DNA of 32,949 nt from Alphaproteobacteria bacterium (GTDB taxonomy: Bacteria; Pseudomonadota; Alphaproteobacteria; RF32; CAG-239). Positions 3,792 to 32,949 of the stretch are shown piece after piece. The notes below the pieces were generated by a model. It was not told the DNA's origin. It worked only from the letters and a program-made list of their open reading frames with translations, and ran no database searches. Position 1 is the stretch's first letter; every line of letters begins with the position of its first letter. The position numbers were made by a program, and so were the translations under genes. The stretch spans positions 1-32,949 of the forward strand of contig JAFVFH010000017.1 in assembly GCA_017475525.1 (NCBI GenBank). The letters are read 5' to 3'.

Positions 3792-3820
3792 TTGACTTTT
3801 TGTGTTTAATGTGGCAAAAT
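3792..3820 (+). promoter_or_regulatory. Promoter of the type-1 RNA leader
   Basis: TTGACT (3792-3797), 17-bp spacer, CAAAAT (3815-3820). The G that starts the first RNA hairpin (3827) lies 7 nt after the -10 box, exactly as in the paralogous leader at 18222. Confidence 0.6.
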
Positions 3821-3826
3821 AAAAAT

Positions 3827-3988
3827 GTAACCAAATGGTTGCGGTGTTTAACAGACACATTCATCGTTTACGCTCCTTGATGAGGAGTTGTCGAGATAAG
3901 CGTATATTTTACGTCGAATAAGGCAAACTGTGCGATGACAGTTCTGTTAGCTCCTCCGTTTTGGTATTTATCTGAGACGGTTTTTTTT
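3827..3988 (+). ncRNA. Type-1 structured leader RNA with terminator (copy A)
   Basis: Candidate cis-regulatory RNA. Parts in order: hairpin GTAACCA/TGGTTGC (3827-3842); GGTGT, with P1 GTGT/ACAC (3844-3858), whose loop TAACAG (3849-3854) can pair with CTGTTA (3944-3949) as a pseudoknot; long stem TCATCG/CGATGA (3861-3866, 3933-3938) enclosing hairpins CTCCT/AGGAG (3873-3887) and CGTA/TACG (3901-3913); linker CTCCTCC; terminator CCGTTT/AGACGG (3956-3980) and eight T. Copy B (18222-18384) has the same layout with compensatory changes in every stem, and both hold the repeated unpaired motif CGA[A/G]ATAAG...CGAATAAGG. The next ATG is 37 nt after the T-run with no room for another promoter, so read-through should control that gene. 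Confidence 0.75.
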
Positions 3989-4024: not shown

Positions 4025-5401
4025 ATGATGCAAAAAAAGTTTTTTAGTGTGCTGATGACAGGTGTCATATTTTCAACCGGTGCTTTGGCAGATGTTTCAC
4101 AATATTATTACAATGAAAAAGGGTTGCTGACAAAAAAATGTTGGACAACGGATTGTTCTTCTTATGTCTCTTATGAATATGACGATCAAGATCGGCTAGT
4201 CTCTGAAACGGATGGTGGCTGGAGCTATAAATACACCTATCAGGATAATGCCGTTATGCAACGTGATACCTATCGAAATGGGGTCAAAAGTGAGACTTAT
4301 TTTTTTAAACAGGATTTTGATTTTCCAAATGTTGCGTCACGTTATGATGAAGGGGAAAGCATGGGAGCTTTATACTATGATTCTAACGGAAATATAACAG
4401 GAGGTAATTTATATAGCGTTGAAAACGGCACGGTATACAAAACAGACTATACAAACGGTGTTGCGCAAACTCCCGAAGTCGTTGGCCGTTATGTTCATAC
4501 AGATGACGGCAGAACGTTGGAAACAAGGTATTCGGACTGGCGTACATCAACAACAATTCGTGATGAAACAAATATGAAAGGGCTTGGTTATGAAAATATT
4601 TACGAGGACGGGCGTAAGGAAATAACGAATTTTGATAACGGCTATGAACGTCCAAACGTAATGACTTATTATCCTGACGGAAGTTTTGAAGGAAGGATGC
4701 ATATTTTAGATGAATACGGCAATCCCATCAGCTATACACAATACAACAAAGATGGAACAAGCCTGATTGAAATAGCTTTTGATAATGTGTATGATAACGG
4801 GAAATTGATTTCTCAAACATTGACATTCGATAACGGTCAGTATCAGGTTGTCGAATATTATGATGACGGAACAAGAAAGTCAGAAAAAAATTATGATAAA
4901 GATGGTGTCCTTCAATCAGAGGTCTCATTTGATGAGCACGGAAATGACATATATTTTACTTCTAATGATGGCCAATACAGTGAGTTTTCTCATGAATATG
5001 ATAAACAAGGTAATCTTTTAAAAACAACATTTTCTCGCTATGATCAAGACGGCAAGTTAATAAGTGAGGGCGAAGAAAGTTGTGATTCTTGGCTTGTGAA
5101 GCAAATAGGCTTCGGTATGATGGACAGAAACTGTGTAAGCATTAAAGATATCGGCTATGATGCTGACGGAAATGTGATGTGGGGAAGATATTGGGAGTTT
5201 GATGAATATGGTAATCCGCTTCAAGAAATGCAATACCAAAACAATCAACCGGTTGCTCAAAGGGCGCATGTATATGCAAATCCAAACTGGAAAGCCGCTT
5301 TGAAAGCACTTCATAGAAAAATTCGTCGCAGCTATACGCTTGAAGAAGCCGCAGCAGCAAGCAAACCGACAGGAAATACGTTTAGGCTGAGATATAAATA
5401 A
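4025..5401 (+). CDS. Secreted YD-repeat-like protein with C-terminal RLRYK motif
   Basis: A 458-residue exported protein. The signal peptide is MMQKKFFSVLMTGVIFSTG followed by ALA and cleavage before DVSQYY. Most of the rest is a degenerate repeat of about 20 residues built on YDxxGxL or FDxxGNx (for example YDDQDRL, YNKDGTSL, YDKDGVL, YDKQGNL, YDADGNV), resembling YD/RHS-type beta repeats. It ends with RRSYTLEEA...TGNTFRLRYK, a tail shared with the proteins at 11137 and 29067. ATG 4025 or ATG 4028 may be the start; both follow AAGGAG. Expression is probably governed by the leader at 3827-3988. Its partner or ligand is unknown; surface location is inferred from the signal peptide and repeats. 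Confidence 0.82.
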   Translation: MMQKKFFSVLMTGVIFSTGALADVSQYYYNEKGLLTKKCWTTDCSSYVSYEYDDQDRLVSETDGGWSYKYTYQDNAVMQRDTYRNGVKSETYFFKQDFDFPNVASRYDEGESMGALYYDSNGNITGGNLYSVENGTVYKTDYTNGVAQTPEVVGRYVHTDDGRTLETRYSDWRTSTTIRDETNMKGLGYENIYEDGRKEITNFDNGYERPNVMTYYPDGSFEGRMHILDEYGNPISYTQYNKDGTSLIEIAFDNVYDNGKLISQTLTFDNGQYQVVEYYDDGTRKSEKNYDKDGVLQSEVSFDEHGNDIYFTSNDGQYSEFSHEYDKQGNLLKTTFSRYDQDGKLISEGEESCDSWLVKQIGFGMMDRNCVSIKDIGYDADGNVMWGRYWEFDEYGNPLQEMQYQNNQPVAQRAHVYANPNWKAALKALHRKIRRSYTLEEAAAASKPTGNTFRLRYK

Positions 5402-10920: not shown

Positions 10921-11112
10921 GATGTGGGCAAGGGCACACATCAGCACCAAAAGGTGCGGAGCTTTCCAAAGCTTTGGATTCGCAGGCAATCTTGCCTAAT
11001 ATTCCCCGACATGGGTTGGGGAGCTTTTAGCGTATATATGAAGGCTAAAAGAGTCATTTGCGAATCTATGATTTTGGAACTCTCCAACCACCTTTTGAGG
11101 TGGATTTTTTTT
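10921..11112 (+). ncRNA. Type-2 structured leader RNA with terminator (copy C)
   Basis: Parts in order: hairpin GATGTG/CACATC (10921-10942); hairpin GCACC/GGTGC (10944-10957); GGAGC with P1 AGCTTT/AAAGCT (10960-10973), whose loop region TTCCAA can pair with TTGGAA near 11074-11079; long stem GATTCGCA/TGCGAATC (10977-10984, 11059-11066) enclosing GGCAA/TTGCC, CCCC/GGGG and CTTTTAG/CTAAAAG hairpins; conserved GTCATTT before and ATGATT after the 3' strand; CTCTCC (11080-11085), which can pair with GGAG at 10958; terminator CCACCT/AGGTGG (11088-11103) and nine T. Copies D and E share the layout and the conserved words. The downstream ATG is 25 nt after the T-run. Confidence 0.75.
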
Positions 11113-11136: not shown

Positions 11137-12099
11137 ATGAGAAAGTGGGTTTTAGCTATTTGTCTTCTGGCAAGTTTTAATGCAAAGGCTGAAATTGTTA
11201 CAGGTGAAAAATGCGGTGATGATTGTTCTTGGACTTTGGATACGGATACAGGGCAATTGACTATTTCAGGAACCGGCAATATGTATGATTGGGATTTTTT
11301 TGATACGGGGCATCGTTTATGGGATGGTGGTGAAAGTCACCATCAAACCCTGGCGCCATGGGGGGAATATAGTGCCGATATTCAACATATTGAGGTTGGA
11401 AACGGGATAACATATATAGGAGATCACTCTTTTTACAATACATCAGCAACAAGTGTTAATCTTCCAAATACATTAGAGCAAATCGGACCACAATCTTTTC
11501 AATATTCTAATTTACAGGAACTAACTATTCCGTCTTCTGTCACAACTCTTGGATTTGCATCGCTTGATCATACAAAGATAAGCCATCTTGAGCTGCCGGA
11601 CAGTATTACTTCAATTGGAGATGTTGCTTTTCGATATATGCCGCTGGACAATCTAGTGATTCCGGATTCTGTGATATCAATTGAAGGAGATCGTGTTTTT
11701 TTAGGTGTTGGCGGAACAATTTATTGCACAGCCTCTTCGCCTTGTGCAGACAAAGGCTCTGAAAATATTGTTCCGTATGAACGAGAAGGCGGTGTATATA
11801 TTTTAAACGGCAAGTATTATTTTACCGGCGCTGATATGGCAGGCGAGACAAACGAGTGCCAAAAAGAACTCGGTGAATGTAAACGTGATGTTTTGGAAAG
11901 CAAAGGCATTTGCTCAGGTTCGGCTTGTGACACTTTCATTCAAAGCGATGGTCATTATATGCTCAAATATAATGGGAGAACCTATCAAAGTATCAATGAC
12001 CTTTTGAAAGGAAATTATGACAGACGGCGGATTTATACCGTCGAAGAAGCCAGTTTTGTGAGCGGTAAGAAAAATACGGTTCGTCTAAGATATAAATAA
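11137..12099 (+). CDS. Secreted BspA-like leucine-rich repeat protein with RLRYK tail
   Basis: A 320-residue exported protein. ATG 11137 is chosen because it follows ATGGAGA and gives the signal peptide MRKWVLAICLLASFNAKA; the longer upstream frame runs through the leader RNA. After the signal comes a beta-rich segment, CSWTLDTDTGQLTISGTG, shared in pattern with the protein at 29067. Then come BspA/LRR_5-type repeats (about residues 85-190: ITYIGDHSFYNT, LEQIGPQSFQYS, ITSIGDVAFRY). A Cys-containing region, DECQ-like and CKRD, follows, and the C-terminus is RRIYTVEEA...KNTVRLRYK. Such repeats often mediate adhesion; that role is inference. Expression is probably set by the leader at 10921-11112. 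Confidence 0.85.
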   Translation: MRKWVLAICLLASFNAKAEIVTGEKCGDDCSWTLDTDTGQLTISGTGNMYDWDFFDTGHRLWDGGESHHQTLAPWGEYSADIQHIEVGNGITYIGDHSFYNTSATSVNLPNTLEQIGPQSFQYSNLQELTIPSSVTTLGFASLDHTKISHLELPDSITSIGDVAFRYMPLDNLVIPDSVISIEGDRVFLGVGGTIYCTASSPCADKGSENIVPYEREGGVYILNGKYYFTGADMAGETNECQKELGECKRDVLESKGICSGSACDTFIQSDGHYMLKYNGRTYQSINDLLKGNYDRRRIYTVEEASFVSGKKNTVRLRYK

Positions 12100-18221: not shown

Positions 18222-18384
18222 GTTATCTGAAATCAGGTAACGGTGTCCAACTGACACGTAAGACCTTAGCTCCTTTGCAGAGGAGTTCCCGAAATAAGCC
18301 AGTTTACTGTTCGAATAAGGGAGACTGTGGTCTTACAGTTAGTTGACTCCTCCATTTTGAGATTTTTTCAAGATGGATTTTTTT
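18222..18384 (+). ncRNA. Type-1 structured leader RNA with terminator (copy B)
   Basis: Hairpin GTTATCTGA/TCAGGTAAC with loop AA (18222-18241); P1 GTGTC/GACAC (18243-18257), whose 5-nt loop CAACT can pair with AGTTG (18341-18345); long stem GTAAGACC/GGTCTTAC (18258-18265, 18329-18336) enclosing CTCCT/AGGAG (18270-18285) and CAGT/ACTG (18300-18309); linker CTCCTCC; a 9-bp terminator CCATTTTGA/TCAAGATGG (18352-18376) and seven T. Every stem differs in sequence from copy A but pairs in the same place. The next ATG is 45 nt beyond the T-run. Confidence 0.78.
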
Positions 18385-18428
18385 GGACTATCTTTAATAT
18401 TAACCCTTTATTTTATGGAGAAATTAAA

Positions 18429-18812
18429 ATGGACCATGATACAAACAAAACGATTTATATCAACCGTGTTTTAGATTCAAACAAAAAACCGCTCGGCGGC
18501 ACCGTTCACGTTTATGAAGAAGTTGAAATCGAATCTGATGAACCGTTTTTAGATAATTACCTCGGCTTTGGGATTTCCGAACTCACCGATTCACAAAAAC
18601 TTAAAACGATGGATTTTATCCAGACCTTAACGGCCGGAAAAGTCAATTTTAATGAAGCGTTTGCTTATATATACTTGACAACAAATAACAAGAACATACG
18701 TTCTATCATTTCGCAAATTGGCGGAATGAAAGAAATCATTTCAAAGCTAAAAGCTCAAAAATTGCCTCAAAATGACAATGAGCTTTTGGATTTTATTCAA
18801 GAAAACATATAA
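18429..18812 (+). CDS. Unknown 127-residue cytoplasmic protein behind RNA leader
   Basis: No family recognised. The start ATG 18429 follows TATGGAGA at good spacing. There is no signal peptide, membrane segment or C-terminal RLRYK motif. The N-terminal part is polar and beta-like (YINRVLDSNKKPLGGTVHVY, then acidic EEVEIESDE). The C-terminal two thirds look helical (LTDSQKLKTMDFIQTL, ISQIGGMKEIISKLKAQK). It is monocistronic, ended by the terminator at 18813-18842, and preceded by leader copy B, so it may belong to the same regulon as the surface proteins and could be a regulator or chaperone for them; that is inference only. Confidence 0.75.
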   Translation: MDHDTNKTIYINRVLDSNKKPLGGTVHVYEEVEIESDEPFLDNYLGFGISELTDSQKLKTMDFIQTLTAGKVNFNEAFAYIYLTTNNKNIRSIISQIGGMKEIISKLKAQKLPQNDNELLDFIQENI

Positions 18813-22142: not shown

Positions 22143-23006
22143 CTAATACCTTAAGCTTGTTTTGATGTTTAAGAATGGGATTTTGCCAAACAGATAAATT
22201 TTTGTTCTTCGGTTTTGTTTGATGATTTTAAACAAAGGCAAAAAGCCGAACAAACGTATGGTGCTCGTTTGAGATGAACTGAGCAAAAGTTCATTATACA
22301 AAGCGGGATATTGGGCTTGAACAGATGCCCATAAGGCAAGCGAGGCATCGTCCATCTTTGAAGACTTTGTGTGTGAGCTGTTGTTTTTATGATTGCGATA
22401 ATGGAAAAGAACTTCTTGAATGTTTGCAAATTTTGTTATGCCAATCAGGCGACACCATAGGGCATAATCTTCGGCAGGGGAAAATTCGGCTTCGTAACGA
22501 ATGTTGTTGTCAATCAATACGGATTTTCGAATCATTGAAGAAGGGTGCAAAATGGCACAGCTTCGCATTAAAGCCACCTTGATTTTGTGGTCTGCTTCAG
22601 GTTTTTTTAAGATTTTTGATTTGACAATCTCTTTGCTCCATGTGCCGACAACGCCGACATCAGGGTGCGAATCGAGAAAAGCGACTTCTTTTTCAAATCT
22701 TGTCGGCAATGAAATGTCATCATGATCCATCACGGCCAGATATTCCCCTTTGCTCAAATCTATCAATTTGTTGCGCGAGGGGGAAATGCCTAAATTTTGC
22801 TTGTTTTTGAAATATTTGATGCGTTTGTCGTGATATGACTTGACAATATTTTCAACCGGATTTGCCGGACAATCATCTAAAATGAGAAATTCAAAATTTG
22901 TATAGGTCTGAGTTAAGATACTCTCGATGGCTTCGCGTAAATATGTTTCCGGCGTTTGATAAACGGGCATTAAAACGGAAACTTTCGGGTTTAAAAGGTT
23001 GGTCAT
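22143..23006 (-). CDS. Family-2 glycosyltransferase
   Basis: A 287-residue GT-A fold enzyme, likely building a surface polysaccharide. Features: KVSVLMPVYQTPETYLREAI at the N-terminus, SILTQTYTNFEFLILDD, NLGISPSRNK, the DxD-like metal site VMDHDD near residue 93, and AEDYALWCRL as the acceptor-side acidic motif. A C-terminal part from about 240 has two hydrophobic stretches ending FLNIKTSLRY. ATG 23006 follows GGAGATTGAC; the longer frame runs into the leader terminator. It is controlled by leader D and lies near an RgpF-like gene, suggesting a glycan locus. Confidence 0.92.
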   Translation of the reverse strand: MTNLLNPKVSVLMPVYQTPETYLREAIESILTQTYTNFEFLILDDCPANPVENIVKSYHDKRIKYFKNKQNLGISPSRNKLIDLSKGEYLAVMDHDDISLPTRFEKEVAFLDSHPDVGVVGTWSKEIVKSKILKKPEADHKIKVALMRSCAILHPSSMIRKSVLIDNNIRYEAEFSPAEDYALWCRLIGITKFANIQEVLFHYRNHKNNSSHTKSSKMDDASLALWASVQAQYPALYNELLLSSSQTSTIRLFGFLPLFKIIKQNRRTKIYLFGKIPFLNIKTSLRY

Positions 23007-23028
23007 GTCAATCTCCAAGTTAAAAGTT

Positions 23029-23294
23029 AAAAAAATAAACCACCTTTGGAGGTGGTCTGGAGAGTTGAACAATCATGTTACGCTAAATGACCCTCTCAGC
23101 CTTTATGATTTAAAAATCACTGGACATCCACTGAAAGCTCCCAGACCATATATATGACCTGGGATTATTTTACTTTTGGCGATTATCAAGCGCCAAAAGG
23201 TATGACGATGTCAATCCCAGACACCGAACGTAACAAGAGCTGTTCAAGGCTCCGAACCGCCTTCGGTTCTAAATGCGCTTTATCAAAGCGCATC
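23029..23294 (-). ncRNA. Type-2 structured leader RNA with terminator (copy D)
   Basis: On the minus strand: hairpin ATGCGCTTT/AAAGCGCAT (23293 down to 23273); hairpin GAACC/GGTTC; GGAGCC; P1 AGC/GCT, whose loop TTGAACA (23247-23241) pairs perfectly with TGTTCAA (23071-23065); long stem TGTTACGTT/AGCGTAACA (23235-23227, 23084-23076); inner hairpins including CTTTTGGCG/CGCCAAAAG; GTCATTT and ATGATT as in C and E; CTCTCC; terminator CCACCT/AGGTGG and a T-tract. A -10-like TATAAA and a -35-like TTGCCT lie just upstream. The glycosyltransferase ATG is 23 nt beyond the T-tract. Confidence 0.75.
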
Positions 23295-29066: not shown

Positions 29067-30113
29067 TTATTTATATCTTAACCTAAACGTATTTCCTGTC
29101 GGCTTGGAAATCTTTTCAGCCTCTTCAACGGTGTAGATGCGTTTGGGTGCGCTTCTTTGCGTATTATTTGTTGCCGGAATGTTCGGTTCAGACGAAGGCT
29201 CGGTATTATTTGAGGCTAAAACCAAAGTCTCGCCTGATTGACTTTGATATGTGTATCCGTCTTCTCCGTCTGAAACTTTGTTGTAGCGTGTGCCGTTATA
29301 AACAAAAGTGTCTAAAGCCCCTTCATCATTTGCGTCCGGAATATCTTCCAAAGAAGTATAATTTTTGAGAATATTATTGTTGGTATCAAACCACCCGAAA
29401 CTTAAAGCACTCACACCATCGTTTATATTCTCCCAATAATTTTTGCAAGTGCTGACATCACCTCTGCATTCAACCGTCAGATTGGAGAAGTTTGCATTTT
29501 GTCTGGCGTATTCTTCTAGTTCCTCAGTAATCCACTCCATCTCCATTTTCGCAGATTCTAACTGATTATACCAATACATTGCTTGTTCACGTTCATATGA
29601 TGATATGTATGGGTTGCTATCCAGAACACTACAGTCCCAACCATTAACTGTTTGGTTGCATGCCTGTCCGGGTCCCCAGTACATTTGCTGGAGAGCCTCT
29701 TCATGTTTGTTTGTGGCGTTTGTATATGCTGTTTCTCGTTGCCATAAATATTCTCTGTCCTGAAAATTAGCGTAATTGATTTTCAAACTGTCTGGAACAT
29801 CAATGCTTTCTAGGTTTTTCATACTGTCAAAAGCCATTTTTCCGACATTTGTGATTCCATCATTAATCACAATTTTTTTGACTGAAGATGCCGAATCATT
29901 CCATGGTGCAACGGTTCCATAATACATGCGCTGATAATCGCCTATGGCGCCGGTGCCGGAGAGAGTGAGTGTTCCGTCATCTGAGATAGACCACGTGCCA
30001 CTTCCCTCTGTGCCGTTCGCCCAACTTCCGCTTGCTATTTCAGCGTGAGCAGATGGCATTGATAATAAAACAGTTGTCAGAATGTTGAAAATTATAGTGT
30101 TATTTCTCATCAT
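29067..30113 (-). CDS. Secreted BspA-like protein with C-terminal RLRYK motif
   Basis: A 348-residue exported protein. ATG 30113 or 30110 follows GGAGAAAA; the longer frame runs into the leader terminator. The signal peptide is followed by EIASGSW, and a beta segment GTWSISDDGTLTLSGTGAIG shared in pattern with the protein at 11137. Then comes APWNDSASSVKKIVINDGIT, and only one or two LRR_5-like units. The centre (about residues 115-215) is helical and rich in Tyr, Trp, Asn and Glu. The end is PKRIYTVEEA...TGNTFRLRYK. It is the third carrier of this tail. Leader E precedes it. It breaks up the redox island on the opposite strand. Confidence 0.85.
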   Translation of the reverse strand: MMRNNTIIFNILTTVLLSMPSAHAEIASGSWANGTEGSGTWSISDDGTLTLSGTGAIGDYQRMYYGTVAPWNDSASSVKKIVINDGITNVGKMAFDSMKNLESIDVPDSLKINYANFQDREYLWQRETAYTNATNKHEEALQQMYWGPGQACNQTVNGWDCSVLDSNPYISSYEREQAMYWYNQLESAKMEMEWITEELEEYARQNANFSNLTVECRGDVSTCKNYWENINDGVSALSFGWFDTNNNILKNYTSLEDIPDANDEGALDTFVYNGTRYNKVSDGEDGYTYQSQSGETLVLASNNTEPSSEPNIPATNNTQRSAPKRIYTVEEAEKISKPTGNTFRLRYK

Positions 30114-30135: not shown

Positions 30136-30380
30136 AAAAAAACCGCACCTTGAGGAGCGGTCGGAGCGTGCAAAAATCATATTAGAGGAAATGACTCCGA
30201 CAGTCTTTAGGAAAAATCCTTGGACATTCACTATCGGCACCCCGAACCAAAATCGGGGATAAATGTGTTATTAAAAATAAAAAATAACACTTCATGCAGT
30301 GTTATCCTCACTGCCTCTAATAAACAAGCTTTTGCAAAGCTCCGCGCCTTTCAGGCACTTGATATGAGAAATCTCATATC
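30136..30380 (-). ncRNA. Type-2 structured leader RNA with terminator (copy E)
   Basis: On the minus strand: hairpin GATATGAG/CTCATATC (30380-30361); hairpin GTGCC/GGCGC; GGAGC (30343-30339); P1 AGCTTT/AAAGCT-like hairpin, whose loop TGCAAAA (30336-30330) pairs perfectly with TTTTGCA (30175-30169); long stem TATTAGAGG/CCTCTAATA (30322-30314, 30188-30180); inner hairpins ATAACACT/AGTGTTAT, CCCCGA/TCGGGG and CCGATAGT/ACTGTCGG, the last with the loop word ATGTCCA seen in D; GCTCC; terminator ACCGC/GCGGT and a T-tract. TTGACA lies just upstream as a -35 box. The gene starts 22 nt beyond. Confidence 0.75.
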
Positions 30381-32823: not shown

Positions 32824-32949
32824 CAGAAAACCCCGCGTTAGACGCGGGGTTCAGTGAAGCTTTCAGCGGTGAGATGGACAAAGCGCTCCAATTGGGTTAA
32901 AATTTTGCGGTCTGCCAAGACGCAAAATAACCCAATTGGAGAACATTCA
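32824..32949 (+). mobile_element. Left end of a second IS200/IS605-like element (cut by window edge)
   Basis: GAAAAC precedes hairpin CCCCGCGT (32831-32838), loop TAG, ACGCGGGG (32842-32849): an 8-bp stem with a TAG loop, as in the first element. The following TTCAGTGAAGCTTTCAGCGG resembles TTCGAAAGAGCTTATAGCG of the first element. A long RBS-hiding stem then reaches the edge (32886-32941). The last bases, CATTCA, imply that the tnpA ATG begins at 32949. No transposase sequence is inside the window. Confidence 0.75.
32886..32941 (+). promoter_or_regulatory. RBS-sequestering hairpin of the second tnpA
   Basis: CTCCAATTGGGTTA (32886 on) pairs with ACCCAATTGGAG (to 32941), and ATTTTGCG with CGCAAAAT inside, capped by TCT/AGA. 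GGAG at the 3' end is the likely ribosome-binding site, about 7 nt before the expected ATG. It has the same design as 263-320 with a different sequence. Confidence 0.7.

Follow-up and report, generated by a model that had tools for sequence, protein, structure and literature searches.

The leader RNA at positions 3827-3988 of the analysed stretch of DNA (the window, 32,949 nt) raises the question of what kind of regulator precedes the gene for a secreted repeat protein. The sequence-only reading had described a covarying pseudoknotted leader that ends in an intrinsic terminator before a gene, and this description is supported here. It had also proposed a ligand pocket, for which a different account is given below. 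The element is probably a transcription attenuator that acts in cis. It would descend from, or be a sister of, the antisense RNAs found as leaders of antirepressor operons in phages, which are of the sRNA-Xcc1 type and share the a1b1/a'b' logic of the P1/P7 C4 RNA.

The element, referred to as type 1, occurs twice in the window, and both copies have the layout reported earlier, with P0, TTGACT promoters and terminators in place. The pairings that had been noticed to differ between the two copies are present and covary, namely the pairing made by the P1 loop (K1 in what follows), TAACAG/CTGTTA versus CAACT/AGTTG, P2 with TCATCG/CGATGA versus GTAAGACC/GGTCTTAC, and P4 with CGTA/TACG versus CAGT/ACTG (here P4b). 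The conserved words GANATAAG and CGAATAA had been taken to be unpaired. Their conservation is confirmed, but they face each other in a single internal loop that separates P4b from an outer stem, P4a. The earlier structure was right as far as it went and missed P4a, P3 and the M:R helix, which overlaps the terminator (Table 1). The M strand of the 3827-3988 copy contains GAGGAG. In the Rfam search, at gathering as well as permissive thresholds, only spurious matches were returned for the two window copies, in line with the statement that no known riboswitch class is recognisable.

Table 1. Features of the window. Values of z measure covariation in copies of the same genome (own) and of other genomes (others).
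Feature	Position	Strand	Remarks
Promoter-like site	3792..3820	+	TTGACT, 17 bp spacer, CAAAAT; read from sequence; same arrangement in other copies
P0 hairpin GTAACCA-AA-TGGTTGC	3827..3842	+	presumed RNA 5' end; z=13.6 own, 18.1 others
K1 5' strand (a1-like)	3848..3855	+	inside P1 loop (P1 = GTGT/ACAC); K1 z=34 own, 21.5 others
P2 5' strand (b1-like) TCATCGT	3861..3867	+	P2 z=38 own, 30 others
P3 5' strand CTCCT (L)	3873..3877	+	competes for M; P3:M z=5.9 own, 7.7 others
M strand GAGGAGTT	3882..3889	+	pairs with P3 5' strand or R; M:R z=6.8 own, 12.1 others
P4 hairpin	3889..3926	+	outer stem P4a, internal loop GAGATAAG/TCGAATAA, inner stem P4b CGTA/TACG
P2 3' strand (b'-like)	3932..3938	+	flanked by CTG and CAGTT; from covariation
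K1 3' strand (a'-like)	3943..3950	+	from covariation
R strand AGCTCCTCC	3949..3957	+	common to M:R helix and terminator base; R:terminator 3' arm z=9.3 own, 7.7 others
Intrinsic terminator CCGTTTTGG...GAGACGG-T8	3956..3988	+	read from sequence
Downstream gene, secreted RHS/MORN-like repeat protein	4025..5401	+	C-terminal tail ...SKPTGNTFRLRYK
Type-2 leader, 3' half by model R3	11003..11092	+	a1/b1 strands about 10963-10986; precedes BspA-type LRR tail protein at about 11137-12099
Second type-1 leader	18224..18386	+	P0 at about 18224-18241; covariance model matches 18242-18353; terminator ends at about 18386
Gene behind second type-1 leader	18429..18812	+	127 aa protein, no Pfam match
Type-2 leader, 3' half	23051..23164	-	precedes glycosyltransferase-like ORF 22143-23072(-), whose true start is downstream of the leader
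Type-2 leader, 3' half	30156..30259	-	precedes weak LRR tail protein at about 29067-30113(-)

Three further pairings or readings were rejected. A simple P5 hairpin of CTG with CAG, the words around the P2 3' strand, has no covariation support because its sequence is invariant among the copies. An antiterminator between P0 and the terminator (CCAAAATGG/CCATTTTGG) shows striking complementarity, yet its covariation among own copies is only z 2-3. The third, a leader peptide in AGGAG...TAA, has no consistent start codon.

The window contains five leaders, two of type 1 and three of a second type, which follows the same plan with another internal loop sequence (GCGAATGTTCAAG/CTAAAGG). At the contig end, the Rfam family STnc490 matches window positions 32829-32941(+) with 58.8 bits, just over its 56-bit cut-off.

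Searches with covariance models, as proposed in the earlier reading, found many homologues with compensatory changes. Model R1 was built from the ten copies with the exact core word pair CGARATAAG...CGAATAAGG, which occurs 10 times in the genome versus once for the reversed control. Model R2 was built from 28 copies and model R3 represents type 2. In the 1.44 Mb draft genome, R1 finds 85 full type-1 copies at E<1e-5, R2 recovers the same 85 together with one fragment and one weak relative, and R3 finds 52 type-2 copies. The genome therefore carries no fewer than 137 leaders, which is one in every 10.5 kb or so. A promoter-like site, P0, the core and an intrinsic terminator are present in every copy where the contig flanks allow.

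The structure is carried by compensatory changes. Among 28 aligned copies, both sides have changed at every pair of K1, P4a and P4b, at all 7 pairs of P2 and at 24 of the 33 pairs of the whole structure. Pairing is kept in 86% of cells versus 63% after shuffling, and the covariation score of 0.624 (0.193 shuffled) is reached by none of 500 shuffles; slid versions of the structure collapse. At 70 further loci, mostly from other genera and nearly all outside the own genome, the values are 96.5% of cells and 0.952 versus 0.204, in an alignment fitted to the model. When the strands of a copy are compared with those of other copies, z is 32 for K1, 38 for P2 and 15 for P4a. An unbiased all-against-all scan of 20 segments, run separately in 79 own and 61 other copies, gives the same top interactions in both sets: P2, K1, P4a (z=15.8 own, 17.5 others), P0, R with the terminator 3' arm, P4b (z=8 and 9), M:R, P3:M and the terminator.

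Three of these covarying pairings, the P3 5' strand with M, M with R, and R with the terminator 3' arm, form one chain. The first, P3:M, was without covariation in the initial own-genome test, and it covaries once the segment borders are changed as well as in other genera. There the three strands change in concert, as TCCAC/GTGGAG/CTCCACC, TCCGC/GCGGAG/CTCCGCC and TCCTT/GGAAGGAGT/CTCCTTCC, and L resembles R within single copies (z=6.6). The terminator hairpin includes at least one R base in 91% of the own copies and 98% of the others, with means of 1.9 and 3.0 bases. Mutually exclusive terminator and antiterminator pairings are thereby placed before the gene. The attenuator anatomy is well supported by this covariation, and switching between the two pairings is predicted. 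As the overlap of R with the terminator is no more than about 2-3 bases, M:R might weaken the terminator rather than abolish it. We infer that in the OFF state P3 and the complete terminator would form, and that in the ON state K1, P2 and M:R would together free M and pull R off the terminator base. The trigger would most likely be the RNA itself, either as the nascent strand folds or when its own 3' half, once released, invades the code; a factor bound to the internal loop of P4 may assist.

Leaders of this kind are widespread among relatives. Among 100 genomes of the order, R1 matches 65, representing 13 of the 15 genera sampled and all belonging to one family, and within the genus 9 of 11 genomes carry 2-85 copies. 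In the other genera the next gene usually encodes an HTH-like protein that is small (72-100 aa). With R2, matches extend to four other families within the class and include two loci that act as bridges. In the first (genome G119), the element belongs to a prophage. An integrase next to a tRNA stands on one side of it and tail and lysis genes on the other, and the gene immediately behind it encodes a Rha-like regulator (a sub-threshold Pfam match). In the second (G382), the element matches the Rfam model of sRNA-Xcc1, RF02221, from end to end at 35.5 bits (cut-off 53), with E=1.2e-4 for that stretch.

The genes behind the leaders of the own genome are mostly of another kind. Complete genes for secreted proteins with a common tail (KRIYT..EA..SK.TGNTF.LRYK) follow 53 of roughly 82 copies having downstream sequence; the genes of the other copies are partly cut by contig ends. 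Prepilin-like genes follow eight copies, with Pfam N_methyl in the one tested, and small HTH-like genes follow a few. The tail is present at about 113 places in the genome, and many of those without a type-1 leader have one of type 2. In an independent set of 16 tail-gene loci from named rumen and ruminant-gut MAGs, type 1 is found at eight, one of them a weak, truncated match, and type 2 at six; the named relatives are uncultured rumen Alphaproteobacteria.

Some observations on these genes stand apart. The tail, in the form KRIYTxEEAxxxSKxTGNTFxLRYK, ends otherwise unrelated secreted proteins (window 5324-5398, 12007-12096 and 29070-29150), has no reported Pfam domain and looks like a sorting signal. 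A prepilin-like family with GRSMVEMLGVLAIIGVLSAGA lies behind type-1 leaders of the own genome (e.g., L068, L074, L086) and is also found in G066. A possible third scaffold, GCCTGAA...GGCGG.AAAATAA...TGCGGT with a1/b1-like strands, precedes a tail gene at about 480-730 of locus L189 and also lies downstream of the type-1 copy in L009.

The K1 and P2 strands behave as private codes. P2 strands are distinct in 81 of 84 own copies. Cross-pairing between copies is about at the level of shuffled strands and not below it, so that the case for insulation rests on the divergence of duplicates. In six recent duplicate pairs the flanks differ by 4.5%, P2 by 52%, P4a by 32%, K1 by 16% and the core by 1%, with the pairing kept; the number of pairs is small, some of them are not independent of one another, and the contrast may owe something to constraint on the flanks. 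An example of such divergence is seen in G386, where two copies before HTH genes have downstream DNA that is 97% identical and P2 codes that are unrelated. Since P2 has diverged by compensated changes between recent duplicates whose flanks are almost the same, the codes have the look of being private by design. The divergence fits selection that keeps codes apart, as immunity groups would require, and the private K1/P2 sequence would then insulate each of about 137 leaders from the others. A bolder extension is offered only tentatively: a phage superinfection-immunity code may have been domesticated into at least 137 insulated, self-recognising attenuators, each acting only on its own K1/P2 code, with P2 under diversifying selection. 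The outcome would be a surface-protein repertoire that is individually autoregulated, perhaps one at a time.

The origin of such codes is illuminated by the loci of RF02221, which is found above its cut-off in 39 of 398 genomes of the phylum. Its gathering threshold of 53 bits is reached neither in the window, which has no match, nor in the own genome, where four weak matches (E 0.5-9, the best at 20 bits) all fall on type-1 or type-2 leaders. As read at 20 loci (L165-L184), the Rfam model spans only the 3' half of the element. About 110 nt further upstream stand the 5' strands of K1 and P2, and the code recurs a third time downstream, at the ribosome-binding site. In L169, for instance, CCTAAGAAAC...CACACAGCGG stands upstream, CTCTGTGTGGGGTTTCTTAA in the RNA and CTAAGAAAGC...CACACAGAGGTAATG downstream. 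Matched against mismatched strands, z is 8.0 for a1:a', 4.5 for b1:b', 4.2 for a':a2, 5.2 for b':b2 and 8.2 for M:R, and none of 2000 permutations reaches any of these values. Eight ORFs behind these loci, chosen for their antirepressor-like look, all match Bro-N, P22_AR_N or KilA-N, one of them under the Pfam cut-off, and phage records have Ant genes at matching places. sRNA-Xcc1 appears to serve phage antirepressor genes (BRO, P22_AR_N, KilA-N) as a leader with C4-like logic. In the phage versions, the 3' half would cover the third copy, which sits on the ribosome-binding site of the antirepressor gene. The own and other gut copies show no such a2/b2 words near that site (z 0.4, 1.1, -0.8, -0.8); a terminator occupies the place, and the gut lineage would have lost the third copy.

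The models cross over weakly. None of the RF02221 loci is picked up by R2 at E up to 10, a single one is picked up by R3 (E=0.011), and RF01695 (C4) has no match in the own genome up to E=10. For these reasons the leaders are described as working like a C4-type leader and as probably kin of sRNA-Xcc1, below the thresholds of both Rfam families. Domestication of a phage-type RNA by the host is well supported, and we infer descent from phage rather than the reverse. One of the sRNA-Xcc1 loci also holds a sub-threshold match of c4-2 (RF02944) at L174:2890-2958(-), of 34.8 bits, about 1.3 kb from the element.

Among the alternatives to an RNA-code attenuator, the foremost, though unlikely, is protein-dependent antitermination, in which a host RNA-binding protein at the internal loop would stabilise M:R over the terminator. 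The loop is pseudo-symmetric, highly conserved and adjoins M, and the surface-protein genes would form a large coordinated regulon. The strong conservation of the loop GANATAAG/CGAATAA suggests a further binding partner and counts against the RNA-code reading. However, the same genes are served by two scaffolds with different loops, and no candidate protein was identified.

A new riboswitch class, with a small molecule at the P4 internal loop shifting M between P3 and R, comes next and is likewise improbable. Such a mechanism would account for the loop words, which are nearly invariant in 84 type-1 copies, for the pseudoknotted fold and for the classical expression platform of P3, M, R and terminator. 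It is harder to reconcile with type-2 leaders, whose architecture is shared and whose loop sequence differs, with the loss of P4b from some type-1 copies of G024, G040 and G059, and with K1/P2 codes that are private to each copy, a privacy that ligand sensing would not require. No riboswitch family of Rfam matches, and the downstream genes have no metabolic theme. To our knowledge, the copy number and gene set are unlike those of any known riboswitch. The number of copies, the surface-protein, prepilin and HTH genes, the copy-specific codes and the kinship with antirepressor leaders together argue for an RNA-code attenuator rather than a metabolite riboswitch, and the reading of the conserved words as a ligand pocket is not supported.

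It is very unlikely that the units are stand-alone genes for trans-acting sRNAs, with the nearby genes incidental, as a precedent of 21 C4-like sRNAs in Acinetobacter baumannii might suggest (PMC5320573). Each unit does have its own promoter and terminator. In G040 (L163:1990-2900), four tandem promoter-RNA-terminator units follow one another about 243 nt apart with a gene only behind the last; the first three have no P4b, and the code rule is kept in all four although three are geneless. Against this, start codons lie mostly 42-150 nt past the element on the same strand, a leader stands upstream at 14 of the 16 named rumen tail-gene loci, and code words elsewhere are not in excess (524 versus about 570 in the swapped control, 450 kb searched). 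A dispersed REP- or MITE-type repeat without regulatory function would explain the many scattered copies, but it has practically no chance against compensatory changes at nearly every pair (0 of 500 shuffles), an invariant core with varying flanks and the co-oriented position of the tabulated copies upstream of genes.

The attenuator reading would join three subjects that are not linked in the literature found, namely sRNA-Xcc1, C4-type antirepressor control in phages and the control of a very large surface-protein family in uncultured rumen-type Alphaproteobacteria. It would provide the poorly understood sRNA-Xcc1 family with a testable function. With about one attenuator per 10 kb and a private code in each, the genome would constitute a natural library of orthogonal attenuators, and it would become testable whether bacterial cis-regulation draws generally on the immunity codes of phages.

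Among known systems, plasmid pT181-type antisense attenuation and the phage P4 CI RNA provide an analogy only. In both, pairing of a leader with itself or with a related RNA governs premature termination, and specificity groups exist, but a separate antisense promoter is not seen in the gut leaders. The likeness to sRNA-Xcc1 (RF02221) is found in the M:R closing helix, the P4-type hairpin, whose 3' side carries GAAUAA, b' and then a' before R, the a1/b1 strands upstream and the position before phage regulators. The difference lies in the third code copy at the ribosome-binding site of sRNA-Xcc1, where the gut copies have a terminator. In Xanthomonas cassettes, sRNA-Xcc1 is located upstream of symE (PMC12444791). 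With C4 (RF01695) and c4-2 (RF02944), the leaders share a leader-encoded RNA with a1b1 and a'b' and a code-based specificity, there for an antirepressor operon (PMC5320573); in the leaders, a1:a' and b1:b' pair in an element-specific manner (K1/P2 z 21-38). A c4-a1b1 motif is also listed in PMC2864571. The C4 RNA of P1/P7 differs in having an a2b2 target, which gives way to a terminator in the gut copies; each of these also has a private code. Its processing by RNase P at the 5' end of the closing stem is known, and the same has been suggested for A. baumannii (PMC5320573). The C4-like sRNAs of A. baumannii resemble the present elements as a phage-type antisense RNA that has expanded in a chromosome with a variable a' region. 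They are proposed to act in trans, whereas the elements described here are cis leaders with attenuator anatomy, lie before surface-protein genes and are about six times as many.
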